Origin: a virus
Strand: one strand, 5' to 3'
Virus record (IMG/VR): IMGVR_UViG_3300010885_029022
Span: 1-45,733 of that record
Length of the DNA: 45,733 nt
Program-made: the position numbers and the translations under genes
The notes under the pieces: generated by a model
Database searches by the model: none
What the model was told of the DNA's origin: nothing
The model's input: the letters and a program-made list of their open reading frames with translations, nothing else
Shown: positions 30,196 through 45,159 of the stretch, in pieces
Numbering within the stretch: position 1 is the stretch's first letter
Layout: each line of letters opens with the position of its first letter

Positions 30196-30570
30196 ATGAG
30201 CAATACAGACTCAACCACACCAATTTTTAAATTTAATGATAAAACCTACAACTTTCTAAAGTTTCTAGCTTTAGTTGGGCTACCAACCGTTGCATCCGCA
30301 TATTTTACTCTTGCTGGTCAGCTTAATTTAGCTAATCCAGAAAAGGTTGTTGGTATTCTTACTGTAATTACAACTCTTCTTGGCGTAATGCTTGGTGTGT
30401 CTACAAAGCAGTTCCATAAGTCTGGAGCTGCGTTTGATGGCGCAATTAGCATCACAGAAGGCGCTGATGGGTCTAAGTTATATTCGTTGGATCTTTACGG
30501 AGACCCAAGTACGCTTGATAGTAAGCAGATTGTAAGCTTTAAAGTAGGCAATTCAAATACGCAAGTATAA
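30196..30570 (+). CDS. Putative holin / membrane protein
   Basis: A 124-residue protein with two hydrophobic segments (FLALVGLPTVASAYFTLAG at about 24-42, VVGILTVITTLLGVMLGVS at about 50-68) and a soluble C-terminal half with DGAISITEGADGSKLYSLDLYGDP. I know this arrangement from actinobacteriophage proteins annotated as holins. It lies after the tail genes, next to other membrane genes, which fits. The endolysin that would use it is far upstream at 6283. AGGAG precedes the ATG. Holin call is by family recall and topology. Confidence 0.78.
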   Translation: MSNTDSTTPIFKFNDKTYNFLKFLALVGLPTVASAYFTLAGQLNLANPEKVVGILTVITTLLGVMLGVSTKQFHKSGAAFDGAISITEGADGSKLYSLDLYGDPSTLDSKQIVSFKVGNSNTQV

Positions 30571-30583
30571 CAACTGCTATAAT
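30560..30583 (+). promoter_or_regulatory. Repeated phage promoter, copy 1
   Basis: A 24-base block: CGCA, then AT-A-ACAA in the spacer, then CTATAAT with TATAAT at 30578-30583 and an upstream TG (TGCTATAAT). The block overlaps the end of the holin-like gene. The expected start site is near 30590, giving a leader of about 18 bases before the ATG at 30608. No TTGACA-like -35 is visible; the conserved part is the spacer itself. Confidence 0.75.
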
Positions 30584-30607
30584 GAACACCTACTGAGAGG
30601 ACTTATA

Positions 30608-30895
30608 ATGAGACTACCAAACAAGAAGGATAAAAACCCAAAGCTAACACTAGCCAAGGACAAGCTCATGGACGAACTGTCCAATTACGACCCACAAGAT
30701 AAGGAATATCAAGCAATTCTCGTAAGCCTGAAAGCCCTCACTGAACTCGAATCGCAACCGCGACGAGGTAAAGTTGATGCTAACACGCTTGCGCTAGTTA
30801 TCGGTAACCTTCTCGGAATCATTGTAATTGTCGCATACGAACAAAAGCACGTCTTTGCCAGTAAAGCTTCAGGTTTCCTCCTAAAAGCCAAGTAA
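30608..30895 (+). CDS. Small membrane protein, first promoter cassette
   Basis: A 95-residue protein: a Lys-rich, soluble N terminus (to about 57) and a C-terminal hydrophobic span (TLALVIGNLLGIIVIVAYEQ at about 59-78) ended by basic residues (KHVFASKASGFLLKAK). I know this type from actinobacteriophages, without a known function. It has its own promoter 25 bases upstream (copy 1) and a very strong terminator 29 bases after the stop, so it is expressed as a single-gene unit. Many codons end in C or G, suggesting high expression. Confidence 0.82.
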   Translation: MRLPNKKDKNPKLTLAKDKLMDELSNYDPQDKEYQAILVSLKALTELESQPRRGKVDANTLALVIGNLLGIIVIVAYEQKHVFASKASGFLLKAK

Positions 30896-30923
30896 CTCAA
30901 CACAGCACTAAAGTAGCATTAGC

Positions 30924-30971
30924 ATATAACCCCTAGATATCACAACGATATTTAGGGGTTATATGTTTTTT
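30924..30971 (+). terminator. Strong intrinsic terminator ending the late operon
   Basis: An 18-bp stem with one G-T pair: the arm ATATAACCCCTA-G-ATATC, loop ACAAC, and the returning arm GATAT-T-TAGGGGTTATAT (30924-30964), then G and six T (30966-30971). The stem is the longest inverted repeat noticed in the window. It separates the structural/lysis genes and the first cassette from the region to the right. The other strand has no T-tract, so it acts rightward. Confidence 0.93.
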
Positions 30972-31028
30972 AACAAGTGCTATAAAAAATTCTAAAAAAT
31001 TCCCCGAAGTAAAAATTTGAAATTAAGT

Positions 31029-31052
31029 CGCAGGAATTACAACTCCTATAAT
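31029..31052 (+). promoter_or_regulatory. Repeated phage promoter, copy 2
   Basis: Same 24-base block as copy 1: CGCA, AATT-ACAA spacer, CTATAAT with TATAAT at 31047-31052, followed by GAGAAG. Upstream DNA is AT-rich. No coding region begins nearby; the next 70 bases form hairpins ending in a T-tract, so it seems to drive a short RNA. A weaker look-alike (ACAAGTG-C-TATAAA at 30974-30986) lies just upstream. Confidence 0.75.
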
Positions 31053-31122
31053 GAGAAGCAGACATCCTCACTGTCTGGCAACCCTTGCAAAAGAAAAAGC
31101 CAAACTTCTCCTATTTTTTTTT
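31053..31122 (+). ncRNA. Candidate small structured RNA 1
   Basis: Between promoter copy 2 and a T-tract (31114-31122) lies a compact fold with no open reading frame of note. Hairpin CAGACA (31059-31064) with TGTCTG (31072-31077) abuts hairpin GCAA (31078-31081) with TTGC (31085-31088); an A-rich strand follows (31089-31104), then CTTCTC (31105-31110), which is complementary to GAGAAG at 31053-31058. The expected start is about 31058-31060, so that closing stem may not be transcribed. The T-tract directly abuts promoter copy 3. Function unknown: an sRNA, or an attenuated leader. Confidence 0.45.
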
Positions 31123-31146
31123 CGCAGGAATTACAAGGCCTATAAT
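31123..31146 (+). promoter_or_regulatory. Repeated phage promoter, copy 3
   Basis: The 24-base block again: CGCA, AATT-ACAA, GGCC, TATAAT at 31141-31146, followed by GAGAAG as in copy 2. It begins at the first base after the T-tract of the upstream RNA unit, so the two units are directly joined. It drives the second structured RNA, and perhaps by read-through the protein genes from 31291. Confidence 0.75.
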
Positions 31147-31152
31147 GAGAAG

Positions 31153-31265
31153 TAAGATAAGACACGAACGTGTAGGTGAAAGACCTACCTATCTGGTGCA
31201 GAAGCTAAGCTGCTAAATTACAATTTTCGTTGGATTGTAAACCCTAGACATCTCATATTTTTTTT
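31153..31265 (+). ncRNA. Candidate small structured RNA 2
   Basis: About 113 bases from the expected start to a T-tract (31258-31265). AGATA (31155-31159) pairs with TATCT (31190-31194) and closes two hairpins: ACAC/GTGT (31162-31173) and AGGT-GAAAG-ACCT (31074 offset: 31174-31186, extendable to GTAGGT/ACCTAC). Then GCAG/CTGC (31198-31213) and a 7-bp hairpin TTACAAT/ATTGTAA (31218-31240). TCTCAT just before the T-tract can pair with ATGAGA at 31145-31150, but that lies at the promoter. It is not a tRNA. It could be an sRNA or a regulatory leader for the gene at 31291. Confidence 0.45.
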
Positions 31266-31290
31266 CACCAACTATTAAGGAGATTACATA

Positions 31291-31410
31291 ATGACACGAT
31301 CAAGGCGTTACGGACTTATACACTTTATATTTGATGTTGTGCTCACCGGTCTTACTGGTGGAATCTGGCTTATTTGGGTTCTTATTCGTGAGTTTCAAAT
31401 GAGGCGGTAA
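31291..31410 (+). CDS. Small membrane protein (39 residues)
   Basis: A 39-residue protein: a short basic N terminus (TRSRRYG), one hydrophobic span with FDVVLTGLTGGIWLIWVLIRE, and a basic end (QMRR). I recall this FD-x(4)-T-GG-WL-IW-x-RE pattern from small membrane proteins of actinobacteriophages; no function is known to me. A strong AAGGAG (31276-31281) precedes the ATG. It is the first protein gene after the two RNA units and its stop overlaps the next start by one base. Confidence 0.8.
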   Translation: MTRSRRYGLIHFIFDVVLTGLTGGIWLIWVLIREFQMRR

Positions 31411-31565
31411 TGAAGAAAGCTTACGTTAAACTTAAAGGTTTTATTATTTTAGTTGTACTTGTGCCACCACTTTTAATCATTTACTCAATGGTTCAAACCT
31501 GGACTAAGATAACGACAAGAAAAAAAGACAAATATTGGAAGACGCCATATAAAGAATGGGAGTAG
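31410..31565 (+). CDS. Small membrane protein (51 residues)
   Basis: A 51-residue protein starting in the stop of the previous gene (TAATG). One hydrophobic span (FIILVVLVPPLLIIYSMV, about 11-28) is followed by a basic, polar C terminus with several Trp and Lys (TRKKDKYWKTPYKEW). I do not recognise it. With the 39-residue protein upstream and the two-span protein downstream it forms a run of three membrane genes with almost no spacing. Confidence 0.75.
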   Translation: MKKAYVKLKGFIILVVLVPPLLIIYSMVQTWTKITTRKKDKYWKTPYKEWE

Positions 31566-31566
31566 C

Positions 31567-32307
31567 ATGAACGCTATTGTCGATATTTTTAACAAAGCAG
31601 AACGACTAGTTCAACATAACTCGTCATCAATTTTAACGGCGTTTGGTATCTCTGGTACAATAGGTACTGCATATTTAACAGGTAAAGCTTCGTTTAAAGC
31701 CGCTCATATTATTCAAGAAGAAGAGCGGTTAACAACAAAAAAAGTAGATCCTAAAGATGCAGTAAAGAAAGTGTGGAAACTTTATATTCCAGCTGGGGTA
31801 TCCGGCGTTGCCACAATTGCTTGTATTGTTGGAGTGTCTAAAATCGGTTCGCGACGGACAGCAGCTATCACAGCTGCATATTCTTTAAGCGAAAAGGCAT
31901 TTACCGAATACAAATCCAAAGTTGTAGAAACTCTCGGAGAAAAGAAAGAGAAGAAAATTCGAGATGAAGTATATGAAACTAAAATGTCAAATAATCCTCC
32001 TTCAAGCTCAGGTATTGTATTGGCGGGTACGGGCGACGTACTCTGCTGCGAGACTTGGACAGGACGATATTTTAACAGCGATATGGAAACCATCCGAAAA
32101 GCTGTAAATGTTATTAACGCCAAACTTAATAGAGAAATGGAAGCAACACTAAGCGACTTCTACTATCTAATTGGCATACCAACAACATCGTCGTCATCAT
32201 ATTCTGGGTGGAACTCAGATAAACTTATGGACTTAGATTTTTCCACCCTACTTCATGACGGACGGCCTTGTTTAGCATTCGAATACAATTACGTTAAGAT
32301 TTTGTGA
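31567..32307 (+). CDS. Two-span membrane protein (DUF6353-like)
   Basis: A 246-residue protein with two hydrophobic spans (about 22-40, ILTAFGISGTIGTAYLTG; about 72-90, LYIPAGVSGVATIACIVGV) separated by a charged helix, then GSRRTAAITAAYSLSEKAF and a cytoplasmic-looking domain. I believe this is the DUF6353 family of phage membrane proteins. A paralogue lies at 34449 (LYTPAVVLGTLSIAALTG, RRNTALTAAYATLSAAY). The C terminus has DFYYLIGIP...GW, a module also found in the proteins at 33644 and 34449. Function unknown; a membrane-anchored assembly is possible. Confidence 0.85.
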   Translation: MNAIVDIFNKAERLVQHNSSSILTAFGISGTIGTAYLTGKASFKAAHIIQEEERLTTKKVDPKDAVKKVWKLYIPAGVSGVATIACIVGVSKIGSRRTAAITAAYSLSEKAFTEYKSKVVETLGEKKEKKIRDEVYETKMSNNPPSSSGIVLAGTGDVLCCETWTGRYFNSDMETIRKAVNVINAKLNREMEATLSDFYYLIGIPTTSSSSYSGWNSDKLMDLDFSTLLHDGRPCLAFEYNYVKIL

Positions 32308-32334
32308 TTAATAACCAATTGAAAGAAGGATACC

Positions 32335-32508
32335 ATGGAAGAAATTACAGAAATTGTAGAAACAGTTAACCCAGGCGTTGACTACCGTAAAGGCCTCATT
32401 ATTGCTGGCGTTATCGTTGTTGGTGCATTGAGTGCTAAAGGCATTGTTAGCTTTTTAGCACGCCGAAAGGCTGTTGACGAAGGCATTAATACAACTGAGG
32501 CGTCTTGA
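32335..32508 (+). CDS. Small single-span membrane protein (57 residues)
   Basis: A 57-residue protein: acidic N terminus (EEITEIVETVNPGVDYRKG), one hydrophobic span (LIIAGVIVVGALSAKGIVSFL, about 21-41) and a short basic/polar end. AAAGAAGGA lies at 32321-32329. Its stop overlaps the TTG start of the next gene. The family is not known to me. It continues the membrane-protein cluster. Confidence 0.75.
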   Translation: MEEITEIVETVNPGVDYRKGLIIAGVIVVGALSAKGIVSFLARRKAVDEGINTTEAS

Positions 32509-32840
32509 ACCAGCAGGAATTTGAAAAGATATTTCGAGATCAAGTAGCACTTTGCGAAGCGACTCTACTTCGAAAGGGCTCCGAGTATGCAAAAGATGCT
32601 GACCGTCTACATAATTTTAAAATAGCGGCAGCGTTACAAGGAGAAAACACCAGCCAAGCGCTTGGTGGTATGCTTGCTAAGCATATTGTGTCAATTTATG
32701 ATGTTATTCAATCAAATCAACCAGTAACTCTTGACTATTGGAATGAAAAGATTGGCGACGCAATGAATTACTTATTTCTGCTCAAAGCAGTTATAATTGA
32801 AGAATCATCTACTTATATATCAACAAACAACAAAGGATAA
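32505..32840 (+). CDS. Small all-helical phage protein (DUF1599/Nmad1-like)
   Basis: A 111-residue protein with LLRKGSEYAKDADRLHNFKIAA, LGGMLAKHIVSIYDVI and WNEKIGDAMNYLFLLKAV. This resembles a phage family called nucleotide modification associated domain 1 (DUF1599), distantly like MazG-type helical proteins. If right, it would act on nucleotides or their pools. The TTG at 32505 overlaps the previous stop and follows GAGG. Identity is by recalled pattern and the metal-binding set is incomplete in view, so the function is tentative. Confidence 0.72.
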   Translation: MNQQEFEKIFRDQVALCEATLLRKGSEYAKDADRLHNFKIAAALQGENTSQALGGMLAKHIVSIYDVIQSNQPVTLDYWNEKIGDAMNYLFLLKAVIIEESSTYISTNNKG

Positions 32841-32843
32841 ATC

Positions 32844-33281
32844 ATGCTCAAGCGAACAATCAAGTACGAAGATTTCAATGGCGTAGACGTTGTTGAAGAC
32901 TTCTATTTTAATCTTTCAAAATCAGAGCTTATTGAGATGGAAGCCGAATACGAAGGTGGGCTTTCGGAAACTTTGAACCGGATCATTGAGGCAAAAGACA
33001 ACAAGACCCTTATTGCTGAATTCAAGAAGCTGGTTCTTAACTCGTACGGACAGAAATCTATTGACGGTAAGCGTTTCATGAAGTCAGATAGTTTGCGCGA
33101 GGAGTTCTCACAGACTCCAGCGTATGACGTTTTGTTTATGGAGCTTGCGTCAAATGAAGGCGCAGCTGGTGAATTTATTAACGGCATCATGCCTAAAGAT
33201 ATGGCTATTGCTACAAATCAACCCGCTACCGCAGCTACTGCACCTCAGCTCCCACCACCACCAACAACTGTTGATATTTAA
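32844..33281 (+). CDS. Conserved phage protein, possible assembly chaperone-like
   Basis: A 145-residue protein with FYFNLSKSELIEMEAEYEGG, a KLVLNSYGQKSIDGKRFMKS segment, LREEFSQTPAYDVLFMELAS and EFINGIMP, then a Pro/Ala-rich tail. The pattern is strongly conserved in phages of Gram-positive hosts; some annotate it as tail assembly chaperone, but I am not certain. It lies far from the tail genes. AAAGGA precedes its ATG. Codons here end in C/G more often than in neighbours, so it may be abundant. Confidence 0.82.
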   Translation: MLKRTIKYEDFNGVDVVEDFYFNLSKSELIEMEAEYEGGLSETLNRIIEAKDNKTLIAEFKKLVLNSYGQKSIDGKRFMKSDSLREEFSQTPAYDVLFMELASNEGAAGEFINGIMPKDMAIATNQPATAATAPQLPPPPTTVDI

Positions 33282-33284
33282 TAT

Positions 33285-33308
33285 CGCAAGTATAACAAGG
33301 CCTATAAT
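33285..33308 (+). promoter_or_regulatory. Repeated phage promoter, copy 4
   Basis: The 24-base block begins two bases after the previous stop codon: CGCA, TATA-ACAA, GGCC, TATAAT at 33303-33308. The next ATG is at 33333, the same 25-base distance from the -10 box as in copy 1. AT-rich DNA precedes it. It drives a single small gene. Confidence 0.75.
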
Positions 33309-33332
33309 GATAACCACTATTGAAAGGCAGAA

Positions 33333-33578
33333 ATGAAACTCGATACTTTTAAACTGGCCAGCGCTTTTGTCGTCGGTTCAGGTGTTGGCAAAATCACATC
33401 CACAATAATTAATAACAATGTTATTCCGCAGACGAACCTCCAAAAGGTTCTAGTCGCTGCGGGAAAATTTGGCATTAGTGTTGCGGCAAGTGCGATTGTT
33501 GTTAAGCACACTGACGCCTATATTGACGAATGCGCTGCCATGTACAAATCGTTCAAGCCAATTCTTACCAAGAAGTAA
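33333..33578 (+). CDS. Small membrane protein, second promoter cassette
   Basis: An 81-residue protein with two short, weak hydrophobic stretches (KLASAFVVGSGVGKI at about 7-21, VLVAAGKFGISVAASAIVV at about 39-57), both Gly/Ala-rich as in helices that pack together, and a basic C terminus (KSFKPILTKK). Flanked by promoter copy 4 upstream and a terminator at 33604-33629 downstream, so it is expressed alone. C/G-ending codons are frequent. AAAGGC precedes the ATG. I do not know the family. Confidence 0.8.
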   Translation: MKLDTFKLASAFVVGSGVGKITSTIINNNVIPQTNLQKVLVAAGKFGISVAASAIVVKHTDAYIDECAAMYKSFKPILTKK

Positions 33579-33603
33579 ATAATCAACAATCAAACAGAGT
33601 TAC

Positions 33604-33629
33604 AGTCCCAACCGGGGCTTTAACTTTTT
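33604..33629 (+). terminator. Intrinsic terminator of second cassette
   Basis: AGTCCC, loop AACC, GGGGCT (33604-33619; six pairs with one T-G), followed by TTAAC and five T (33625-33629). It lies 26 bases after the stop of the 81-residue gene and just ahead of the ribosome binding site of the next gene. The T-tract is interrupted, so termination may be partial. Confidence 0.62.
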
Positions 33630-33643
33630 CTCAAAGGATGTAT

Positions 33644-34291
33644 ATGGACGCATTTCCTAGTAATAGCAATAGAGCACAAGAAGGTAAAAAGTCAAAAACT
33701 CCAATTGAAAAGAAGATTGAAAAGGTCACTACCGGTGAGGTCATTAAGCGCAAAAAGTCAATCGGCGAACGATTTAAAGCTGTGTTTTTAGGTGGTGATT
33801 TGAAAAGTGTTGCCAAGTATGTTACTGGTGACGTCCTTTTGCCGGCCCTTAAAAATATGGCCGTAGACACGATTGAGCAAGGCGCTAAGCGAGCTATATA
33901 TGGTGATTCAATAGCGGGGCGCCGTCGAAGTGCTCCATCTGATATGAACCGACCACGCATATCCTACAACTCGCCAATAGACCGTGGGTATGGTCCTCGT
34001 CAAGGGACAATGCTTCCACACCAGCCCCCGTATTACAATCAACCGCGTCGAGCACAAAATATTGGTGATATTATTCTTTCTTCTCGTACTGAAGCAGAAG
34101 TTGTGCTTGAGCGAATGAAAGATATTCTTGATCAGTATGACGCAGTATCAATTGCAGATTTGTACGAGCTTGTTGGCTTGCCTAGTTCGCATGTAGATCA
34201 TACATGGGGCTGGCAAAACCTAGGTTTTACAGCAATCCGTCAAATCCGCGAAGGTTATGTTATTGATTTACCACCAGCAGAAGCCCTCTAA
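33644..34291 (+). CDS. Conserved phage protein with C-terminal DLYELVGL module
   Basis: A 215-residue protein. The first 60 residues are very basic (GKKSKTPIEKKIEKV to GERFKAVFLGGD), a middle part (KYVTGDVLLPALKNMAVDTIEQGAKRAIYG) is helical, then an Arg/Pro/Tyr-rich region to about 140, and a C-terminal domain with AVSIADLYELVGL, HTWGWQNLG and REGYVIDLPPAEAL. I recognise that domain from phages, without a function. The ATG at 33644 has AAAGG spaced correctly; upstream in-frame starts run through the terminator. The YxLVGL...GW pattern also occurs in the proteins at 31567 and 34449. Confidence 0.83.
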   Translation: MDAFPSNSNRAQEGKKSKTPIEKKIEKVTTGEVIKRKKSIGERFKAVFLGGDLKSVAKYVTGDVLLPALKNMAVDTIEQGAKRAIYGDSIAGRRRSAPSDMNRPRISYNSPIDRGYGPRQGTMLPHQPPYYNQPRRAQNIGDIILSSRTEAEVVLERMKDILDQYDAVSIADLYELVGLPSSHVDHTWGWQNLGFTAIRQIREGYVIDLPPAEAL

Positions 34292-34302
34292 TAGGAGATA
34301 TA

Positions 34303-34440
34303 ATGGGAACACAAGTGATGCGTAATACTATTAAAAAACTTGGTAGACCTGGATCGGACTGGCATGACAAAGTTGACAAAATGCCAGATAACAAAGTAAC
34401 AGCAATTTACCTTCGCCTTAAGGCTAACGGAAAACTCTAG
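34303..34440 (+). CDS. Unknown 45-residue basic protein
   Basis: A 45-residue protein, basic at the N terminus (MRNTIKKLGRPG), with WHDKVDKMP and TAIYLRLKANGKL at the end. GGAG precedes the ATG at 34303. The TATAAT-like bases overlapping this start are part of the ribosome binding region, not a promoter. I do not recognise it. It fills the gap between two conserved genes with normal spacing and is probably real. Confidence 0.7.
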   Translation: MGTQVMRNTIKKLGRPGSDWHDKVDKMPDNKVTAIYLRLKANGKL

Positions 34441-34448
34441 GAGTAAAC

Positions 34449-35306
34449 ATGAAATTTATACCAGAATCAATCACGCGAACAATCGGTCGTCAAATGATTA
34501 GCGTACAAAAGAACAGCCCACATATTTTGTTTGCAGCTGGCATTGTTGGTATCGTTGGCAGCACGGTGCTTGCTTCTCGAGCAACTCTTAAATTGAGCGC
34601 AGTTCTTGACGAAGCCGAGCACGAAATCACCGGCGTTAAGACCGAACTGAAGCACCGTAAGGGTCAATACCAAAAAGACTTAGCGTACGTCTACACAAAG
34701 AATACAATGGAAATTGTTAAATTGTATACGCCTGCTGTGGTCCTTGGTACGCTCTCAATCGCCGCTCTTACCGGATCGCATATTCAGTTGACGCGACGTA
34801 ATACGGCTCTTACAGCGGCTTACGCGACCCTCTCAGCGGCTTATGACAACTACCGTGATCGAGTTCGTAAAGAAGTTGGCGAAGAACGAGAGATGCATTT
34901 GTACCACAGCGCCACATTGGAAAAGATGATGGTTGCTGGTAAAAACGAAGAGGTTATGGTTGTAGACCCAAATACTTGGTCTCCTTACGCCCGACTCTTC
35001 GACGAGACATCAATTCAATACCACAAGAACGCGGAGTTAAACAAGCTGTTTATATTGGCTCAGCAAAACTACCTAAACGATTTGCTGCGTGCTCGTGGGC
35101 ATGTGTTTCTCAACGAGGCGTATGACGCACTTGGTTTAGAGCGTTCTACTGCCGGTGCAGTTGTCGGTTGGGTAATTGATGTGACCGGTGACAACTATAT
35201 TGACTTTGGTCTTTACAACAAGCAAAGTGCGCGGTTTACAAATGGTATTGAACGATGCGTTGTTCTTGACTTTAATGTTGACGGCGTTATATTTGATAAA
35301 CTTTAA
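34449..35306 (+). CDS. Two-span membrane protein (DUF6353-like), paralogue
   Basis: A 285-residue protein related to the one at 31567: hydrophobic spans at about 27-43 (LFAAGIVGIVGSTVLAS) and 92-110 (YTPAVVLGTLSIAALTG), a charged helix between, RRNTALTAAYATLSAAYDNYRDRV, then a soluble domain. The soluble end has VFLNEAYDALGLERSTAGAVVGW (219-241, shown here in parts) and IDFGLYNK, a module shared with the proteins at 31567 and 33644. It has an AGGAG site. Many C/G-ending codons suggest strong expression. Function unknown. Confidence 0.87.
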   Translation: MKFIPESITRTIGRQMISVQKNSPHILFAAGIVGIVGSTVLASRATLKLSAVLDEAEHEITGVKTELKHRKGQYQKDLAYVYTKNTMEIVKLYTPAVVLGTLSIAALTGSHIQLTRRNTALTAAYATLSAAYDNYRDRVRKEVGEEREMHLYHSATLEKMMVAGKNEEVMVVDPNTWSPYARLFDETSIQYHKNAELNKLFILAQQNYLNDLLRARGHVFLNEAYDALGLERSTAGAVVGWVIDVTGDNYIDFGLYNKQSARFTNGIERCVVLDFNVDGVIFDKL

Positions 35307-35323
35307 CCTACAAAGGAGAAGTA

Positions 35324-35965
35324 ATGAATTCTAGTATTTCGAATCTCCTCGCAAAAAAGTACGCTGTCCCCACACTTTGTGGGGCGGCGGTTCTTGCGAC
35401 TGGATTTACAGCAGTTTATATTTCACGTCAAATCCGCAATAAAAATGTAATTGTTGTGCCAGCAGAGGAGGTTACAATGCAAGACAGTTTTACTATTGAT
35501 CCTCAAGATCTGGAAATGCTTGTACCAATTGAAGGTTTGACAGAAGAAATTGATAATACGCCCGAAAGCGTAAACGTTTTTATGTCCGAAAGCGATGACT
35601 ATTGGGATTACGAGCATGAGCTTTCAATTCGTGATCCAGAATCCCCGTACGTTATTCATGCAGATGAGTACATAAATGATGAAATGGGTTTTCGTCAAAG
35701 CACAGTAACCTACTATGCTGGCGATGATATCATGGCAGATATGAGCGATACTCCAGTTTACAATTGGAATGCTATCATGGGTCCCTTAGAATGGGGGCAC
35801 GGCTCAAAGGATAAAAACGTTGTGTACATTCGCAACGAAAGATTGCGCAAGGAGTGGGAAGTCCTGCTCCACAGTGGCTCGTATGAGATTGAGGTAGCTG
35901 GTTTCCAAATGGAAAAAACATCTGGCGAACTTCAACACTCACTTCGGAAGTTTAGAGACGACTGA
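35324..35965 (+). CDS. Single-span membrane protein with conserved acidic domain
   Basis: A 213-residue protein: one N-terminal hydrophobic span (VPTLCGAAVLATGFTAVYIS, about 15-34) with a short basic tail outside it, then an acidic linker to about 95, then a conserved domain with YVIHADEYINDEMGF, VTYYAGDDIMADMSDTPV, PLEWGHGSKDKNVVYIRN and LQHSLRKFR. I know that domain from phage proteins of unknown role. AAAGGAG precedes the ATG, and the stop overlaps the next gene. It belongs with the membrane cluster. Confidence 0.85.
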   Translation: MNSSISNLLAKKYAVPTLCGAAVLATGFTAVYISRQIRNKNVIVVPAEEVTMQDSFTIDPQDLEMLVPIEGLTEEIDNTPESVNVFMSESDDYWDYEHELSIRDPESPYVIHADEYINDEMGFRQSTVTYYAGDDIMADMSDTPVYNWNAIMGPLEWGHGSKDKNVVYIRNERLRKEWEVLLHSGSYEIEVAGFQMEKTSGELQHSLRKFRDD

Positions 35966-36498: not shown

Positions 36499-36509
36499 AA
36501 GGGGGATAT

Positions 36510-39500: not shown

Positions 39501-40262
39501 GACAACAAGAATGCCGAAGGCCTTTCGTATGCTCTTAAGATTGTTATTAACATTGTCTATGGCCTTACCAGTGCCAAATTCAGTAACGCCTTCCGAGATA
39601 ACCGAAACGTAGATAACATCGTTGCAAAACGAGGTGCCTTATTCATGATAGACCTTAAGGACGAAGTCCAGAAACTAGGTTTTACAGTTGCGCACATTAA
39701 GACTGACTCAATCAAAATCCCAGATGCAACGCCAGAGATCATTGCGTTTGTCACAGAATTTGGCAAACGTTACGGTTATGACTTTGAGCATGAGGGAACG
39801 TATGATAAATTTTGTCTGGTTAACGATGCGGTATATATTGCAAGGGAAAAAGGTTCCTGGAACGCTGTCGGGGCACAATTTCAACACCCATATGTATTTA
39901 AGAAGTTGTTCACAGGTGAACCGGTTACATTCGACGACTTGTGCGAGACCAAAAGCGTCACACAAGGCGCTATGTACCTCGATTTCTCAAACCAACAAGT
40001 GGATATTGACCTTAAGGAGCTAGTGCATGTTGGCAGGACTGGAAGCTTTATTCCGGTTATATCTGCTGGAGCTACACTTTGGCGTATCAAAGACGGTAAG
40101 AAATATGCTGTCACGGGCACAAAGGGTTACCAGTGGGTTGAGCGAGAGATGGCGTTTGCACGTGAAGACTTGGATGTGGATTATTCGTACTTTGAAAATC
40201 TTAAAACGGCAGCGTTTGAAGCAGTAGATTTTTACGGAGTATTTGAGAAATTTGTCGAGTAG
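36510..40262 (+). CDS. Helicase-primase-polymerase fusion (SF3 + AEP + family B DNA polymerase)
   Basis: A 1250-residue replication protein with three parts. SF3/D5-type helicase (about 150-300): Walker A GPAGSGKST at 181-189, Walker B-like AIQHDGD (229-235), motif C FMGTNQP (273-279), and the Arg pair IIRRL (289-293). Primase-like AEP domain (about 470-600): IIIDFDL with Asp502 and Asp504, SGSGVHLH with His539, and Glu560. Family B polymerase: exonuclease YDVEV (Asp707, Glu709), GFNNRRYDN (748-756), YCVND (Asp845); polymerase motif A LLDVASMHP (941-949), motif B LKIVINIVYG (1009-1018), motif C IKTDS (Asp1066, with Lys in place of the first Asp). TTG start after AGGGGG. I know the parts from separate genes; this three-way joining is unusual. 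Confidence 0.92.
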   Translation: MDFYQISQTEPKQGTPKWFPDWTVGRSKDLMVRGRSFYAVWDEHNGLWSTDEYDIQRLVDEDLHRYAKEQASKQNGVNFPVMNLKSFNTRIWSTFRAFMLNISDNSHPLDEKLIFANTEVKKTDYASRRLPYALESGTTNAWDELMNVLYSDDELAKIEWAIGAVVSGDSKKIQKFLVFYGPAGSGKSTVLNIIQDMFTGYVATFDAKALGSSNNAFATEVFRHNPLVAIQHDGDLSKIDDNTKLNSIISHEEMTMNEKYKPSYTSRVNAFLFMGTNQPVKISDAKSGIIRRLIDVHPSGAKVEPERYNALMQQIDFELGAIAYKCLKRYQAMGKNHYNSYRPLEMMLQTDVFYNFIEAYFDMFKKQDGASLKQAYELYKEYCLDTGIDRLLPQYKFREELRNYFEYFHDKIELEGIMVRSYYQGFKDLTPPTPFKPHESYLIEFGEHTSVFDTLCANQPAQYGKESGYPGRKWESVTTTLSDLDTAKLHFVKVPENHIIIDFDLVDENGDKDLLQNVRAASLWPPTYSELSKSGSGVHLHYFFTGNVHELANVYDVGIEVKTLLGDSSLRRKLTQCNTLDISTISSGLPKKDKPVLDNRTIQSEKGLRDLIERNLKKDIHPGTKPSIDFIHKILEDAYAEDLRYDVRDLRPRILAFALGSNNQSTACLKIVQKMRFVSESALEFLYTNLLVEQGNDKEELPLVFYDVEVYPNLFIVCWKYEDKPEVVRMINPTSQEIEKLFALKLVGFNNRRYDNHILYARFLGESLEDLYNRSQKIISTNEGGLFGEAYNLSYADIYDFSSKKQGLKKFEIELGIHHMEMDLPWDEPVAEELWPLVVDYCVNDVVATEAVFKDRKQDFVARSILAELSGLSVNHTTQQHTAKIIFGAEKYPQKSFVYTDLSAIFKGYKFDGRESTYRGEVVGEGGYVYSEPGIYENVALLDVASMHPTSIEELNLFGPYTKNFSELKEARLAIKHKQYEKAAGLLGGKLAKFLDGDNKNAEGLSYALKIVINIVYGLTSAKFSNAFRDNRNVDNIVAKRGALFMIDLKDEVQKLGFTVAHIKTDSIKIPDATPEIIAFVTEFGKRYGYDFEHEGTYDKFCLVNDAVYIAREKGSWNAVGAQFQHPYVFKKLFTGEPVTFDDLCETKSVTQGAMYLDFSNQQVDIDLKELVHVGRTGSFIPVISAGATLWRIKDGKKYAVTGTKGYQWVEREMAFAREDLDVDYSYFENLKTAAFEAVDFYGVFEKFVE

Positions 40263-40285
40263 TCCTCATATTTAAAAGGAGAAAC

Positions 40286-40582
40286 ATGAAATACCCTATC
40301 GTTTACGTTGTATGGAAGGACCATGCTGAAGCTAATACTCAAGCTTGGGCTGACCACGACAAGCTAGGCTCGAACAAACTTGTTGACGCTGTAACGATAG
40401 GGTTTCTTGTTTACGAAAACGAGGAAGCTATCCAAGTGGCTACAACGTTTATTGACGAGTACGGGATTGTTGGCCGGCCCGATATTATTGCAAAGGCTTT
40501 AATTATTTACCGAACAGAACTGGACGTAAAAGAATGGGTTCCAGTAAAAAAACAAACTAGAAGGAAACTTAATGAGAGATAA
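40286..40582 (+). CDS. Unknown 98-residue protein
   Basis: A 98-residue protein: an N-terminal beta strand (YPIVYVVWKDH), then a helical part (TQAWADHDKLGSNKLVDAV), a short strand (TIGFLVYE), and a basic C terminus (KKQTRRKLNER). AAAAGGAG precedes the ATG. The fold could be a small alpha/beta unit. I do not recognise the family. It lies between the replicase and the single-strand binding protein, so a replication link is possible. The end overlaps the next start. Confidence 0.7.
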   Translation: MKYPIVYVVWKDHAEANTQAWADHDKLGSNKLVDAVTIGFLVYENEEAIQVATTFIDEYGIVGRPDIIAKALIIYRTELDVKEWVPVKKQTRRKLNER

Positions 40583-40745
40583 TCAATACCGACTTCTTCC
40601 AGAAAAAGGTGGAGTTTCTATTTTGTGTACCTCATGTGCTAGGTTATTGGATGAAAAGCCAACTAACCGAGCAGAAGTTATATTTGAATACATCACTTTC
40701 CATGAACTTTTAAATCATACAATTAAGGAGAATAATAATGGCTGA
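40572..40745 (+). CDS. Small unknown protein (57 residues)
   Basis: A 57-residue protein with one CTSC pair at residues 19-22, and a Glu-rich middle. The start overlaps the previous gene by 11 bases; the end overlaps the single-strand binding gene by eight bases. One CxxC pair alone is not enough for a zinc site, though two copies could share one. AAGGAA precedes the ATG. Unknown function. Confidence 0.62.
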   Translation: MRDNQYRLLPEKGGVSILCTSCARLLDEKPTNRAEVIFEYITFHELLNHTIKENNNG

Positions 40746-41199
40746 CGATCGAACGACAGTAACAATTGAGAACGCGCAACTCGTGTTCAAGAATTTCGCT
40801 GGGGCGGAGGGGCAGTATAACGCTGCTGGAGACCGAGAGTTCTCGGTTATCCTAGACCCAGAGAATGCTACTCTTATGGAGAAGGCTGGATGGAACGTAA
40901 AGTACCTGAAGGCTCGTGAGGAAGGCGATTCGCCGACTCCATATTTGCCAGTTAAGGTAAGCTTCAAAGTGCGGCCTCCAACGGTAGTTGTGATTACGTC
41001 AAGTGCTCGCACTCGATTGGACGAGAACTCTGTTGAGACGCTTGACTGGGCAGAAATTGAAAAGGCTGATCTTATTGTTACGCCATACGCTTGGACCGTT
41101 GGCGCAAAGAGCGGCATTAAAGCATATTTGAAGTCTTTGTACGTAACGGTTGTCGAAGACGAACTTGAGCTTAAGTACGCACAAAGGGAGGAAGTGTGA
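40738..41199 (+). CDS. Phage single-stranded DNA-binding protein
   Basis: A 153-residue protein of a known phage ssDNA-binding family. Signatures: VTIENAQLVFKNFAGAEGQYN, GDREFSVIL, AGWNVKYLKAREEGD, LPVKVSFKVRPP, TLDWAEIEKADLIVTPYAW and SGIKAYLKSLYVTVVEDELELKY. It protects unwound DNA during replication and fits its place after the replicase. Codons are G/C-richer than in neighbours, in line with the high copy number such proteins need. AAGGAG precedes the ATG, and its stop overlaps the next start. Confidence 0.9.
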   Translation: MADDRTTVTIENAQLVFKNFAGAEGQYNAAGDREFSVILDPENATLMEKAGWNVKYLKAREEGDSPTPYLPVKVSFKVRPPTVVVITSSARTRLDENSVETLDWAEIEKADLIVTPYAWTVGAKSGIKAYLKSLYVTVVEDELELKYAQREEV

Positions 41200-41279
41200 T
41201 GGGTAATATTGTAGCAGGTTTTGTTGTAACGCTTGTTAGCGTGATATTTGGATATAGCATGGGGAGGCACTCCTCATGA
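41199..41279 (+). CDS. Tiny membrane peptide (26 residues)
   Basis: A 26-residue reading frame: MGNIVAGFVVTLVSVIFGY then a short basic end. It has one membrane-length hydrophobic stretch. It is joined to both neighbours by overlaps (TGATG at its start, TCATGA at its end), with GGGAGG at 41186-41191 before the ATG. The overlaps and ribosome binding site favour a real gene despite its size. Function unknown. Confidence 0.6.
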   Translation: MGNIVAGFVVTLVSVIFGYSMGRHSS

Positions 41280-41638
41280 ACACTCTCGTATCTCATGCAC
41301 AAACAGAGCTGATCTTGATGCACGAAGACCCAATGACTATCTCTGGATATTTGGATGTGGTTCAGGCATGGTCAGACATGGGTGATTGGTCAAATGAAAG
41401 TATGCTTGAAATTCTTGTTAAGCTGCTTGAGTGGAAGAACTTAACGCCACTTACTAACAGCCCAAACGAATGGCTGCCAATGCCTATGGCATCAGGTCAA
41501 GATAGCATGCTTTGGCAAAGTGCTCGTAACGTTGAAGCATTTTCAACGGATGGTGGCGTAACATATTACTTGTTGGAGGAACGAGATCAAGATCCAAGCT
41601 CGTTCCATATTTCAGAAAAGGTTAATCCAATTGGCTGA
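41276..41638 (+). CDS. Unknown 120-residue soluble protein
   Basis: A 120-residue acidic protein. It has a run of helices (ISGYLDVVQAWSDMG, NESMLEILVKLLEWKNL) followed by NEWLPMPMASGQDSMLWQSARNVEAFSTDGGVTYYLLEERDQ, a probable small beta domain. The first 60 residues are helical and Trp-rich. I do not recognise it. It is translationally coupled at both ends by short overlaps and is probably an accessory early protein. Confidence 0.72.
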   Translation: MNTLVSHAQTELILMHEDPMTISGYLDVVQAWSDMGDWSNESMLEILVKLLEWKNLTPLTNSPNEWLPMPMASGQDSMLWQSARNVEAFSTDGGVTYYLLEERDQDPSSFHISEKVNPIG

Positions 41639-41927
41639 AACTAACCAAACAATCGCTTGCCGTAGAGTAGTGGATTTCTTTAACGACTTTCGCAACGACG
41701 GCGTAGCAGAAATGACACTAGACGACGTCTATATTTTGTTTTATACTAAGCTTTTAAATAGTTGGAAAGCGCTTGTCACGACAACTGTTGGCGATGAGAT
41801 ATATTACCAAATTACATACAATGGCGAAACCGAAGAAACATATTTGGACGTCTTTACCAAAGCGTATAACTTTTGTATCACTAAAGAATCCGCTGACGAC
41901 TCACACCCATCCCTATTTGATATTTAG
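41631..41927 (+). CDS. Conserved small phage protein (DUF6275-like)
   Basis: A 98-residue protein with CRRVVDFFNDFRND, LDDVYILFYTKLLNSWKALVTT, EIYYQITYNGETEETYLDVFTKAYN. This matches a family I know as DUF6275 from phages of Gram-positive hosts, with no assigned function. The start is TTG at 41631, inside the end of the previous gene, with AAAAGG upstream. The family recall is good; biological role is open. Confidence 0.78.
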   Translation: MAETNQTIACRRVVDFFNDFRNDGVAEMTLDDVYILFYTKLLNSWKALVTTTVGDEIYYQITYNGETEETYLDVFTKAYNFCITKESADDSHPSLFDI

Positions 41928-41939
41928 CAAGGAGTAACA

Positions 41940-42164
41940 ATGGTTGCCAAACGAATTCATAAATACGAGGGCTGGGTTGTAGTAGAGCCAGATCGAAGCA
42001 CCGAAACAAGAGGCGCTCGTATTGCTAATCCTTGGCTACACAGACCTAGTAACTTTAAGGCTTTCTGTGTTTGTGCAAGAGAAATGTTACAGACAACCCC
42101 ACAGGATGTTTATAACGGCGTACAACCGCGTTGTCCTAAGTGCCCACCAGTAAAGGATATTTAA
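41940..42164 (+). CDS. Small protein with possible zinc-binding cysteines
   Basis: A 74-residue protein with FCVC (Cys43, Cys45) and CPKC (Cys65, Cys68), spaced so that they could hold one zinc ion, and a basic N terminus (KRIHKYEGW). AAGGAG precedes the ATG. The stop overlaps a possible start of the next gene (TAATG). A small nucleic-acid or protein binding role is plausible, but I do not know the family. Confidence 0.72.
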   Translation: MVAKRIHKYEGWVVVEPDRSTETRGARIANPWLHRPSNFKAFCVCAREMLQTTPQDVYNGVQPRCPKCPPVKDI

Positions 42165-42613
42165 TGGAGACTTACGAATTGGTGCCTTGGCCTAATAAAC
42201 CAGGTATTAAACCAAGCCAGGAACCTTCTAATAATTTCAGTCAAACCCCAAAAACTTTGGGTAATCTAACAATAAATTCAATTAACAAAGGAAACACCAT
42301 GAACCCAGTTATCAATTTTACAAGTTTTGTTCGGCGACCATTCGTGGTTGAAGCTGTACAAATCACCGAGGAAAACATTGACGACCTTGCTGTAATGCTC
42401 GGCGAGATCAAGATTAAGGATGATGAAAAGCATATCCTCTTGGACCGTCGAATTGTGCCAAACATCAAGCGTGCGTTCATTGGTTGGTGGGTTACCAAGC
42501 TTGACGATAACCTTCGTTGTTATTCGCCAAAGGTATTTGAAAAGGAATTTACTATTCAGGACGACAACTGGACGACATATTTTGACCAGCCTGTTGGCCC
42601 AGAAGACATCTAA
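42164..42613 (+). CDS. Conserved phage protein, two possible starts
   Basis: Two in-frame starts both have good ribosome binding sites: ATG at 42164 (AGGA at 42154-42157, TAATG overlap with the previous stop; 149 residues) and ATG at 42299 (AAAGGA at about 42288-42293; 104 residues). The conserved part, RRPFVVEAVQITEENIDDL to WWVTKL and KEFTIQDD, lies wholly after the second start. The first 45 residues are polar and Pro/Asn-rich with low complexity. I know the conserved part from actinobacteriophages, function unknown. Possibly both forms are made. Confidence 0.75.
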   Translation: METYELVPWPNKPGIKPSQEPSNNFSQTPKTLGNLTINSINKGNTMNPVINFTSFVRRPFVVEAVQITEENIDDLAVMLGEIKIKDDEKHILLDRRIVPNIKRAFIGWWVTKLDDNLRCYSPKVFEKEFTIQDDNWTTYFDQPVGPEDI

Positions 42614-42769
42614 ATAAATTTTTGACACCTGAACAAGTGTATAAACTGTTCCCCTTTTATACCGGTGCTGTCCTACATATGGGATCCCCCTTCGTCCTGT
42701 TAAGGGCGACAGTTAAATGACGTGCGACTACGTACAGCCGGCAATTCCACATAGCACAAGGAGATAAGT
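42614..42769. other. 156-base intergenic region with possible promoter and hairpin
   Basis: This gap holds no convincing gene. TTTGACA at 42621-42627 and ACAAGTG-TATAAA ending at 42645 resemble a promoter, but the spacing between the hexamers is only about 12 bases. ACAAGTG plus TATAAA also resembles the degenerate block at 30974-30986. Downstream, CTGTC (42669 region) and GACAG (about 42707) can enclose a CCCTT/AAGGG stem around a nine-base loop. It may be a leader for the gene at 42770. Evidence is weak. Confidence 0.35.
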
Positions 42770-43144
42770 ATGGTAATTGTAGACATAGACCAAACGTTGC
42801 TATATGGCACATCTGGTATTAAAAAAGTGATAGACTATGTAAATAGTTTAGCTGCAACTAAGAAAATTGTCATTGTGACTGGGCGACCGGAATCTCAGCG
42901 AAAAGTTACAGAAGCTGCGTTGTCAAATAATGGCGTTAAATACAATCGGTTGATTATGAATCCTGGCTCAACCGCAACCTCAATCAAATACAAAACTGAG
43001 ACCGCAAAAGCTTTGCTTAAAACTGGCTCCGTTTATTTGGCTATAGATGATAACGTTAATGCACGACAAGCTTATCAAAGTCTTGGTATTCGTACAGTAA
43101 ATCCTAAATCTATGCAATACTCTCTTGGAAAGAAGCCCGCTTAA
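42770..43144 (+). CDS. HAD-family phosphatase-like protein
   Basis: A 124-residue HAD-superfamily protein: motif I DIDQT (Asp5, Asp7), motif II VTGR (36-39), and motif IV DDN (93-95). A Lys of the usual motif III lies between. There is no large cap domain, so it is a minimal HAD that probably acts on a large substrate such as a nucleic-acid end or a phosphoprotein. Polynucleotide 3'-phosphatase is one option. GGAG precedes the ATG. A deoxyribonucleotidase-type HAD follows one gene later. Confidence 0.83.
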   Translation: MVIVDIDQTLLYGTSGIKKVIDYVNSLAATKKIVIVTGRPESQRKVTEAALSNNGVKYNRLIMNPGSTATSIKYKTETAKALLKTGSVYLAIDDNVNARQAYQSLGIRTVNPKSMQYSLGKKPA

Positions 43145-43257
43145 TGGATATTATAGCAGATCTGTGTTTTATATTTGTGTATTGGGTAATGCGCACGTGG
43201 AAAAAGATTTTTGGCCCGCATGATGAAACACCAACAAAGGAAGTACGAACTAAATGA
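43144..43257 (+). CDS. Small membrane-associated protein (37 residues)
   Basis: A 37-residue protein with an N-terminal hydrophobic stretch (IIADLCFIFVYWVM, about 3-16) and a basic C terminus (RTWKKIFGP then KEVRTK). It is joined to both neighbours by overlaps (TAATG, ATGA), which favours a real gene. The hydrophobic part is short for a full membrane span. Function unknown. Confidence 0.6.
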   Translation: MDIIADLCFIFVYWVMRTWKKIFGPHDETPTKEVRTK

Positions 43258-43826
43258 ATACCGATCCACCAAAGCCGCTGCTTCTTCTTGATATGGACGG
43301 CCCTCTGGCAAACTTTGACAAAGCTTTATATGCCGTGTGTCAGCACTTAGGCATTGAGCTTAATATCAAAGGACTTAGCGACCCTAACCGTAAATACTAC
43401 ATGACTGATAACATGGTGCACGATCACGAAAAATTGATGATCCGTGACCTGTTAGACACAAGTCATTTCTTCCAGTATATTCCAGTAACCGACGGCGCCA
43501 TTGAAGGCGTTAAAGAGCTTATGGAATACTTTGACGTTTGGGTTTGCACAAAGCCTCTAGACGCAAATCAGTTTTGTCGAGACGATAAAATGTGGTGGAT
43601 AAGAGAGTATTTCCCAGCGCTTTCCTCCAAAGTGATCATGGCACCAAAAAAGTCATTGATATTTGGCCAAACGTTATTAGACGATGCGCCTGATCTTGAT
43701 TGTATTGACCGTGCATTGTGGAGACCAGTTGTGTTCTCCGATCAATTCAATGGACCAGGCAGTCAGTGGGCGCATCTACCACATTGGAGTTGGGGCGACT
43801 CAATTGATAATTTACGAAGGAGCTAA
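43254..43826 (+). CDS. 5'(3')-deoxyribonucleotidase (NT5C-like HAD)
   Basis: A 190-residue protein of the NT5C family: LLLDMDGPLANFDKAL (Asp13, Asp15), VWVCTKPL with the motif II Thr, a Lys in VIMAPKKSLIFG, and LLDDAPD (motif IV). These enzymes remove 5' phosphates from deoxyribonucleoside monophosphates and so tune dNTP pools. In phages they are seen with other nucleotide genes; here a second HAD protein and a DUF1599-like protein are nearby. It starts with an ATGA overlap on the small membrane gene. The family assignment is good; substrate preference is open. Confidence 0.88.
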   Translation: MNTDPPKPLLLLDMDGPLANFDKALYAVCQHLGIELNIKGLSDPNRKYYMTDNMVHDHEKLMIRDLLDTSHFFQYIPVTDGAIEGVKELMEYFDVWVCTKPLDANQFCRDDKMWWIREYFPALSSKVIMAPKKSLIFGQTLLDDAPDLDCIDRALWRPVVFSDQFNGPGSQWAHLPHWSWGDSIDNLRRS

Positions 43827-43830
43827 AGAC

Positions 43831-44052
43831 ATGAAACCAGAAGATAAAGGACCAGTAGATTTCGTTACGCCAATGTGCATTTGGTGTCATAAAACAGCTA
43901 TCGTTAAAGTACCACACTCAGCATATTTAATGTGGCTAGATGGCGAGATGGCGCAATACGCGTTTAAAGACATGTCTGCAGATGATAGGGAGCTGCTCAT
44001 TAGTGGCACCCATCCAAAATGCTGGGATCTAATCATGGCGGCAGAAGCTTAA
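43831..44052 (+). CDS. Small protein with CIWC motif
   Basis: A 73-residue protein with CIWC (Cys16, Cys19) followed by ahydrophobic-acidic helix and SGTHPKCWD near the end, where a further Cys and His could complete a zinc site. I know the CxxC...SGxHPxCW pattern from small actinobacteriophage proteins. The ATG at 43831 follows GGAG (43819-43822); a long upstream in-frame extension would run through the previous gene. Function unknown, possibly nucleic-acid binding. Confidence 0.8.
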   Translation: MKPEDKGPVDFVTPMCIWCHKTAIVKVPHSAYLMWLDGEMAQYAFKDMSADDRELLISGTHPKCWDLIMAAEA

Positions 44053-44059
44053 CCGGTTT

Positions 44060-44132
44060 TCCTCTATAGCTCAGTTGGTAGAGCATCGGACTTTTAATCC
44101 GTGGGTCGCAGGTTCGAAACCTGCTGGAGGAA
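44060..44132 (+). tRNA. tRNA-Lys (anticodon UUU)
   Basis: A 73-base cloverleaf. Acceptor TCCTCTA (44060-44066) pairs with TGGAGGA (44125-44131) with one G-T pair; D arm GCTCAGTTGGTAGAGC; anticodon loop CTTTTAA with TTT; T arm GCAGGTTCGAAACCTGC. CCA is not encoded. It reads AAA/AAG. Confidence 0.96.
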
Positions 44133-44143
44133 CGCAATACTTA

Positions 44144-44227
44144 GCCCAGGTGGCGGAATGGCAGACGCAGAGGACTTAAACTCCTCCGTTCGTAATGGAC
44201 GTACGGGTTCGAATCCCGTCCCGGGCA
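44144..44227 (+). tRNA. tRNA-Leu (anticodon UAA)
   Basis: An 84-base tRNA with a long variable arm, as expected for leucine. Acceptor GCCCAGG (44144-44150) pairs with CCCGGGC (44220-44226) with one A-C mismatch; anticodon loop CTTAAAC with TAA; T arm ACGGGTTCGAATCCCGT. CCA is not encoded. It reads UUA, a codon common in the window's genes. Confidence 0.95.
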
Positions 44228-44254
44228 CTCACCAACAATAAAGGAGATATTCAA

Positions 44255-44464
44255 ATGGGTAAACATAAAATTAAACTAGAGCCATGGCAACAGCCAATAA
44301 TCTTCAAGGATCCGCGTTATACAACGCTTACTAAAGCCGAGCATACAGAGTTGACTAAGGATATTGAGCACCCAGTTACGTGGCCAAATAGAAAAGGCCG
44401 CAGCACTACTACCAAGGCAATTGATAATATGTATAGTGGAAAAGCAAACGACGGACTTCAGTAG
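44255..44464 (+). CDS. Unknown 69-residue basic protein
   Basis: A 69-residue basic protein, Lys-rich at the N terminus (MGKHKIKLEPWQQP), with polar residues throughout and no membrane span. AAAGGAG at 44240-44246 fixes the start at 44255; longer in-frame versions would run into the tRNA-Leu gene. I do not recognise it. Confidence 0.68.
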   Translation: MGKHKIKLEPWQQPIIFKDPRYTTLTKAEHTELTKDIEHPVTWPNRKGRSTTTKAIDNMYSGKANDGLQ

Positions 44465-44471
44465 GAGAATC

Positions 44472-44834
44472 ATGGAACCAGAACCAGAAGTTGAGATCAC
44501 AAAAGAGATGCTCAAAGACATGCGCAGCAAAGACCGAGAAAAGAAGCGCGAAAGCTTTTTGAATAACCGCGCCTTGCGAGGTAACCCTGGCGTGCCTAAG
44601 TCAAACGGTATTGATGCGCATTGGATTCTGTTGCACGGGCCTGAAAAGCCACCAACACGAGTCTCAATAATGCCCATCAATCTTAAGAAGGCTAGCGACG
44701 GTAATGAAGCGCGGATATTTGCTGCGGAGGCTAAGCGTAATCGCCGAAATGACAAGCGACTTGCCGCAAACCGAAATAGCCTTATTGGTAAGATAGATTT
44801 GGGTAATATATTTAAACAAGAAGAAAGCGCATGA
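44472..44834 (+). CDS. Unknown highly charged 120-residue protein
   Basis: A 120-residue protein, extremely charged at the N terminus (EPEPEVEITKEMLKDMRSKD, then REKKRESF) and with a basic C-terminal stretch (AAEAKRNRRNDKRLAANRN). Both ends are probably helical and could bind nucleic acid or act as a linker. AGGAG precedes the ATG at 44472. The end overlaps the next gene by four bases (ATGA). Family unknown to me. Confidence 0.7.
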   Translation: MEPEPEVEITKEMLKDMRSKDREKKRESFLNNRALRGNPGVPKSNGIDAHWILLHGPEKPPTRVSIMPINLKKASDGNEARIFAAEAKRNRRNDKRLAANRNSLIGKIDLGNIFKQEESA

Positions 44835-45061
44835 AATTCATAACAGTTGACACTAGCAATCAAACCAGGATTGCAAATCAGTATAACATTGACGTTGATG
44901 ATATTGCTGAGTTGTTACCACTTGGTTATATTTTATTATCTGACTTTAATGGAGAGATGCACCCGTATGAGGGCGTGATTACTAAAGCACATTTTGCTAC
45001 GTTATTCGATGTAGGGGCGGAGTTAAAGAATGGATATTTTGAAGCATTACCAAAAGGATAG
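44831..45061 (+). CDS. Unknown 76-residue protein
   Basis: A 76-residue acidic protein with FITVDTSNQTRIA, a helix (DVDDIAELL), then LGYILLSDFNGEMHPYEGVITKAHFATLF. It begins in the previous stop (ATGA). Its last 32 bases overlap the start of a small membrane peptide in another frame. The family is not known to me. Confidence 0.7.
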   Translation: MKFITVDTSNQTRIANQYNIDVDDIAELLPLGYILLSDFNGEMHPYEGVITKAHFATLFDVGAELKNGYFEALPKG

Positions 45062-45134
45062 GCATCCAATTCACATCATAGCTCCTTACACAATGGCATT
45101 ATTGTGTTTGACTTTGTTTATAGGTCTGCGGTAA
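45030..45134 (+). CDS. Candidate small membrane protein (34 residues)
   Basis: A 34-residue reading frame in a gap that would otherwise lack a gene: MDILKHYQKDRHPIH, then IIAPYTMALLCLTLFIGLR, a membrane-length hydrophobic stretch with a basic N-terminal side. GGAG at 45019-45022 lies seven bases before the ATG. The stop (45132-45134) comes two bases before promoter copy 5. A hairpin at 45088-45107 falls inside it. The combination supports a real gene, but size limits certainty. Confidence 0.58.
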   Translation: MDILKHYQKDRHPIHIIAPYTMALLCLTLFIGLR

Positions 45135-45135
45135 T

Positions 45136-45159
45136 CGCAAAAATTACAAGGCCTATAAT
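45136..45159 (+). promoter_or_regulatory. Repeated phage promoter, copy 5
   Basis: The fifth 24-base block: CGCA, AATT-ACAA, GGCC, TATAAT at 45154-45159. Two bases after the previous stop, as in copy 4. The ATG of the next gene is at 45187, 28 bases from the -10 box. It drives a single small membrane gene with its own terminator. Confidence 0.75.

Follow-up and report, generated by a model that had tools for sequence, protein, structure and literature searches.

T7-type promoters are short, high-information sequences with a TATA melting element directly upstream of +1 and a purine-rich, GAGA-like start, and T4 middle promoters (MotA/AsiA) are transcribed by the host polymerase from a start at the usual distance. 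Two-barrel RNA polymerases, both virion and non-virion, are known from the Thermus phage P23-45; their promoter motifs are AT-rich and GC-rich, and the starts have been mapped (PMC10770324). The YonO polymerase of SPbeta transcribes a single late operon; the study that described it left the promoter sequence open (PMC5467207). Here we analyze a short block that is repeated five times in the IMG/VR virus record IMGVR_UViG_3300010885_029022 (positions 1 to 45,733; the window, that is, the whole linear 45.7-kb stretch, with 42% GC and all major genes on the + strand). We propose, with a probability of roughly 0.8, that these blocks are promoters of a phage-encoded, single-chain, two-barrel RNA polymerase of the QDE-1/YonO-like kind with helix-turn-helix (HTH) segments at its N- and C-terminal ends (phrog_4291).

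Like T7-type promoters, the block is short and information-rich, with a TATA element at the +1 boundary and a purine start, although the polymerase is unrelated, having two barrels instead of the T7 right-hand fold. With T4 middle promoters it shares a TATAAT without a -35 box and a replacement element upstream; unlike in those promoters, transcription is predicted to start directly after TATAAT. The resemblance to P23-45 lies in a single-chain two-barrel phage polymerase and a conserved motif before early genes that is found only in polymerase-encoding relatives (PMC10770324). In contrast to P23-45, the polymerase belongs to another family, has its own HTH domains and is not fused to a tape measure protein, the motif and the hosts are different, and the starts are predicted instead of mapped. 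As in SPbeta, the polymerase would be a single-chain DNA-dependent enzyme of the QDE-1/YonO kind, whereas here many promoters of short genes share a defined motif (PMC5467207).

The initial annotation had reported five copies of a 24-base block, and all five were recovered on the + strand, identical at 17/24 positions and with TATAAT intact in all (Table 1). The block is in fact longer: 74 viral-contig sites extend it to 29 nucleotides (nt; T + 24 + GARA), giving a full element of ~29 nt, TCGCA-RR-AATTACA-NNNN-CTATAAT-GARA. The pattern has five exact matches in the window, and six when up to three mismatches are allowed, compared with 0.11 ± 0.31 expected from shuffled sequences; because these counts far exceed the shuffled expectation, the five blocks cannot be due to chance. 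On a weight matrix the five copies reach 34-38, whereas no other site scores above 13. The degenerate relatives suspected at 30974 and 42633 fell outside the 25 best-scoring sites. The idea of a compensated, self-complementary core bound by a dimeric protein also failed, as positions 7 and 10 lack such co-variation (T7-A10 seen five times vs 14 expected among 473 sites). Three blocks precede small genes (30608, 33333 and 45187), and two lie in the gap 30896-31291, ahead of short RNAs that end in T-runs.

Table 1. The five blocks and associated features in the window.
Feature	Start	End	Strand	Remarks
Block 1 (ACGCAAGTATAACAACTGCTATAATGAAC)	30559	30587	+	Predicted RNA start ~30584; predicted to drive a 95-amino-acid (aa) gene, 30608-30895 (phrog_5818)
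Block 2 (TCGCAGGAATTACAACTCCTATAATGAGA)	31028	31056	+	No open reading frame (ORF) after it; predicted to drive a short RNA
Block 3 (TCGCAGGAATTACAAGGCCTATAATGAGA)	31122	31150	+	Abuts the T-run of small RNA 1; predicted to drive small RNA 2
Block 4 (TCGCAAGTATAACAAGGCCTATAATGATA)	33284	33312	+	Predicted RNA start ~33309; predicted to drive an 81-aa gene, 33333-33578
Block 5 (TCGCAAAAATTACAAGGCCTATAATAGAA)	45135	45163	+	Predicted RNA start ~45160; predicted to drive a 65-aa gene, 45187-45384
Strong intrinsic terminator	30922	30966	+	20-pair stem, then T-run; between the block 1 gene and block 2
Predicted small RNA 1	31053	31122	+	5' GAGAAG (31053-31058) pairs with CTTCTC (~31105-31110), followed by T9 (31114-31122)
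Predicted structured small RNA 2	31147	31265	+	Core GACACGAANGYGUAGGUGAAANNCCUACC; ends in T8; family common to other phages of the group
DNA primase/polymerase (phrog_4210)	36510	40262	+	Places the window in the RNA-polymerase-bearing phage group

Beyond the window, the pattern was found in 82 IMG/VR stretches, and the block recurs in hundreds of viral contigs. Conservation in related phages was thus borne out, as was its concentration in what would be the spacer of a normal promoter. The site profile, built without the sites judged likely to be chance matches, reads T-CGCA-RR-A-AT-T-ACAA-NNN-C-TATAAT-GARA; conservation ends abruptly at the upstream T, and the profile contains neither a -35 box nor an extended -10 TG. 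A 38-base consensus was found in 221 named phage records, in most of them at several places, with Streptomyces, Arthrobacter, Gordonia, Rhodococcus and Curtobacterium as hosts (92 records for Arthrobacter, 55 for Gordonia and 50 for Streptomyces), and the Arthrobacter phage Michelle and the Microbacterium phage Damascus carry further phage-specific variants of the block. In complete genomes the blocks lie on one strand and cluster among the small genes that separate the tail/lysis genes from the primase; the scanned stretches had none ahead of the structural operon. The first small gene past the lysis region (orthologues of the 95-aa gene) has a block starting 47-50 nt before it in GirlPower, Secretariat, RosaAsantewaa, Giantsbane and the window. 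No published description of the motif was found in the open-access literature, a search outside which most subscription papers, including the Pepy6 paper, fall.

The hexamer TATAAT, present in 5/5 blocks, is that of the -10 element of sigma-70/sigma-A, and the blocks stand before small genes just past terminators, as would be expected of plain strong promoters read by the host sigma alone and kept for their strength, like the early promoters of SPO1 or T4. However, the sigma-70 consensus scan called 0/5 blocks, in agreement with the reported lack of a -35 box, and the selected sites conserve ~34 bits of information with no -35 and no extended -10 TG. The motif is also nearly absent from host genomes, with seven matches to a 19-base-specified pattern in 84,980 genomes (257 Gb), and four of the seven genomes with a match also encode the polymerase. 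Ordinary host promoters are therefore a very improbable explanation.

The surroundings of the block agree with the promoter function assigned to it in the initial annotation. Matches in IMG/VR typically have a T-run or terminator just upstream and a Shine-Dalgarno sequence with a start codon just downstream. A run of at least four T residues occurs within 40 nt upstream of 245/470 sites (78 in a control interval), and 345/470 sites are followed by a Shine-Dalgarno sequence and an ORF at a median of 27 nt. These counts argue against an operator or an RNA-processing element, such as a stoperator-like repressor site or a cleavage site in longer transcripts. Such a role would fit repeated, intergenic blocks of single orientation, and the pairing of RNA termini described below could mark processed ends, but we consider it the least probable of the readings discussed here, with hardly any chance of being correct.

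The window terminase shares 82% identity with that of the Streptomyces phage RosaAsantewaa, the capsid-protease fusion ~52% with Streptomyces phages, and the primase/polymerase up to 63% with Gordonia phages. The window phage is a member of the group that includes the Rhodococcus phage Pepy6, with the Lactococcus phages P078 and 1706 as more distant relatives. Block-carrying phages encode a protein of ~880 aa (phrog_4291), whose deposited entries call it "RNA-dependent RNA polymerase" or "HTH DNA-binding protein", with HTH-like segments at its N- and C-terminal ends. The sequence GADFDGD, which contains the RNA-polymerase motif ADFDGD, is invariant in six and in 54 homologues. An AlphaFold model of the protein (predicted local distance difference test score 81) matches QDE-1 (Foldseek E 2.4e-10; Z 16.8, root-mean-square deviation 4.3 over 379 residues) as well as the P23-45/P74-26 phage polymerases (gp64 and P74-26 gp62; Z 12.6). 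Sequence and fold thus predict that the relatives of the window phage encode a two-barrel polymerase whose catalytic motif is DxDGD. The family is present in ~250 named phage records, with culturable hosts including Streptomyces, Gordonia, Arthrobacter, Rhodococcus and Lactococcus (95 records for Arthrobacter, 55 for Gordonia and 54 for Streptomyces). In close relatives the gene lies near the right end, almost the last of the right arm. In several phages it is directly followed by a gene for a 90-aa protein (L091 42276-42548 and homologues, 42-67% identity), which may be a partner of the enzyme.

Block and polymerase occur together. The polymerase is encoded by 37 of 50 contigs with promoter-like blocks, including 16/16 of those of at least 50 kb; the other 13 are all fragments below 50 kb, and it is found in none of the 17 contigs set aside from their context as likely chance matches. 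Conversely, 16/16 polymerase-bearing contigs contain blocks, on one strand per contig and with zero matches to a reversed-pattern control. The motif is restricted to polymerase-encoding genomes, and the spacing between ACA and CTATAAT is exact: when it was shortened by one base (three instead of four), 38 matches were obtained, with the polymerase in 0/38, compared with 76 matches at the right spacing and the polymerase in 21/50 contigs. The conserved right-arm genes also include those for a helicase, nucleases, a single-stranded DNA-binding protein, a DNA polymerase, membrane proteins and the 90-aa protein beside the polymerase. Among right-arm ORFs conserved in at least five of nine genomes, an HTH was recognized only in the polymerase, and several core proteins have no known domain.

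The position of the transcript start was assessed using 473 non-redundant block sites, 115 of which have a T-run 40-160 nt downstream, with 3' arms permuted between sites as a control. Pairing between the RNA start and the 3' end, in helices of 6 bp or more, began at offsets -1, 0, +1 and +2 after TATAAT in 17, 23, 18 and 15 of the 115 sites, compared with 5.0, 8.7, 3.4 and 2.1 after permutation, and fell to background from offset +7 on. Eight sites starting with GAGA have helices of at least 8 bp (2.3 permuted), and the stems vary in a compensated manner (GAGAAG/CTTCTC, GAGAGG/CCTCTC, AGAAAGAAC/GTTCTTTC and GAGAAGACACTCCTG/CAGGAGTGTCTTCTC). In 14 genes a canonical Shine-Dalgarno sequence (e.g. 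AGGAGGTG) begins at +1 to +5 after TATAAT; a further site on that list, the fifteenth, is a tRNA. Nearly all 473 sites have a purine, G or A, immediately after TATAAT. A start 6-8 bases after the hexamer, as first assumed, would strip both the pairing bases and the Shine-Dalgarno sequence from the RNA, and the start is therefore placed directly after TATAAT, where these two independent signs suggest that transcripts begin. That mRNAs, too, pair a 5' GAGACCCC with the 3' end of the same molecule was considered and dropped; the mRNAs have ordinary local terminators.

Such a start bears on the possibility that the host RNA polymerase, carrying its main sigma factor, uses TATAAT as a -10 element, while a phage activator of the MotA type recognizes CGCA and ATTACA as a substitute for the -35. 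In favour of this, TATAAT matches the sigma-70 -10 consensus exactly, the GARA that follows resembles a favourable discriminator, and the blocks have no -35. Nevertheless, the predicted RNA 5' ends and the Shine-Dalgarno sites come directly after TATAAT and not 6-8 bases further on, and the host holoenzyme is a poor candidate because a start at this place leaves no TANNNT at -12 to -7, the position at which a sigma factor would require it. Further evidence comes from P078 and 1706, which both infect Lactococcus lactis and whose polymerases are 49% identical. The P078 block is TTTTACATACCCTATAATGA, with TATAAT as the hexamer, whereas the block of 1706 is CACATGTTTTACATAYACTATAGTAGA, with TATAGT in 9/9 copies, so that the hexamer appears to go with the phage and not with the host. 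Moreover, no other likely transcription factor was recognized among the right-arm proteins common to the compared phages, several of which have no known domain. An activator of host polymerase is thus unlikely. Of the readers suggested in the initial annotation, a phage-encoded one is still likely, but a complete phage RNA polymerase fits better than an activator, a repressor or a modified host sigma complex.

If the phrog_4291 polymerase reads the block, and the G or A after TATAAT is numbered +1, TCGCA would span -25 to -21, ATTACA -17 to -12, CTATAAT -7 to -1 and GARA +1 to +4. The centres of TCGCA (~-23), ATTACA (~-14) and TATAAT (~-4) would then be spaced at about one helical turn, with one face turned to the polymerase. 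The HTH segments of the polymerase may bind the two upstream elements, TATAAT may serve as the melting element, like TATA in T7 promoters, and transcription would begin directly downstream, at the following purine. In the window, transcription from these promoters would express three very small genes and yield two structured small RNAs, all of them located between the tail genes and the right end.

Several points weigh against transcription by this polymerase. The identity of TATAAT with the host -10 consensus has to be taken as convergence under this model. Block and polymerase belong to one phage lineage, and their co-occurrence by itself cannot single out the polymerase among the core genes. 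Both the start site and the binding of the block by the polymerase are predictions; some stems reach into TATAAT, which fixes the start only to within a few bases, and the terminal stem of the window small RNA 2 contains a mismatch. The RNA polymerase gene is not in the window contig, which appears to stop short of the place near the right end where relatives have it, so that its presence in this phage is deduced.

The GenBank notes of two homologues hint at a polymerase within the virion: Pepy6 gp106 is described as "similar to Lactococcus phage 1706_gp75, structural protein" and the polymerase of Poco6 as "structural protein". We tentatively consider, at less than even odds, that the polymerase is packaged and injected and that the blocks are immediate-early promoters transcribed without host polymerase. 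If true, this would be an actinophage/Firmicutes-phage counterpart of the virion polymerases of crAss-like phages and P23-45, with a promoter of three defined elements and +1 immediately behind TATAAT.

The block is a sharply defined candidate for the promoter of YonO-type single-chain polymerases, which the YonO study left open (PMC5467207). If transcription by the phrog_4291 polymerase is confirmed, the pair would provide an orthogonal transcription system for use in actinobacteria and account for the expression of many very small genes and small RNAs in these phages. The block is also a warning against taking every perfect TATAAT for a sigma-factor box.

The small RNA 2 family comprises RNAs of ~85-125 nt in which the 5' GAGA(A/G)G forms a stem with the 3' end just ahead of the T-run. 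They contain two hairpins, one covarying and within the core given in Table 1, the other with UUUUCGUUGGA as its loop. Besides the window, members occur in L024, L031, L089 (30186 and 30336), L093 (14322), L222, L224, L267, L295, L317, L327 and L367. A search of Rfam with the small RNAs matched no family, and RNAalifold recovered one hairpin only from the alignment, in which inserts of variable length misalign the terminal stem. Some blocks also stand directly before tRNA-like sequences (L095 19851, L077 9906 on the reverse strand, and L093 14173); two of these, L095 and L077, show pairing of the leader with the trailer ahead of the T-run, with the same geometry as in the small RNAs.

The small-gene region of the window also encodes a homologue of tail assembly chaperones (PF23803, 32844-33281), far from the tape measure gene. 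Two DUF6353-family genes of the window (31567-32307 and 34449-35306) have homologues in the same region of relatives. Genes for tRNA Lys (TTT) and tRNA Leu (TAA) are located near the right end (44060-44228).

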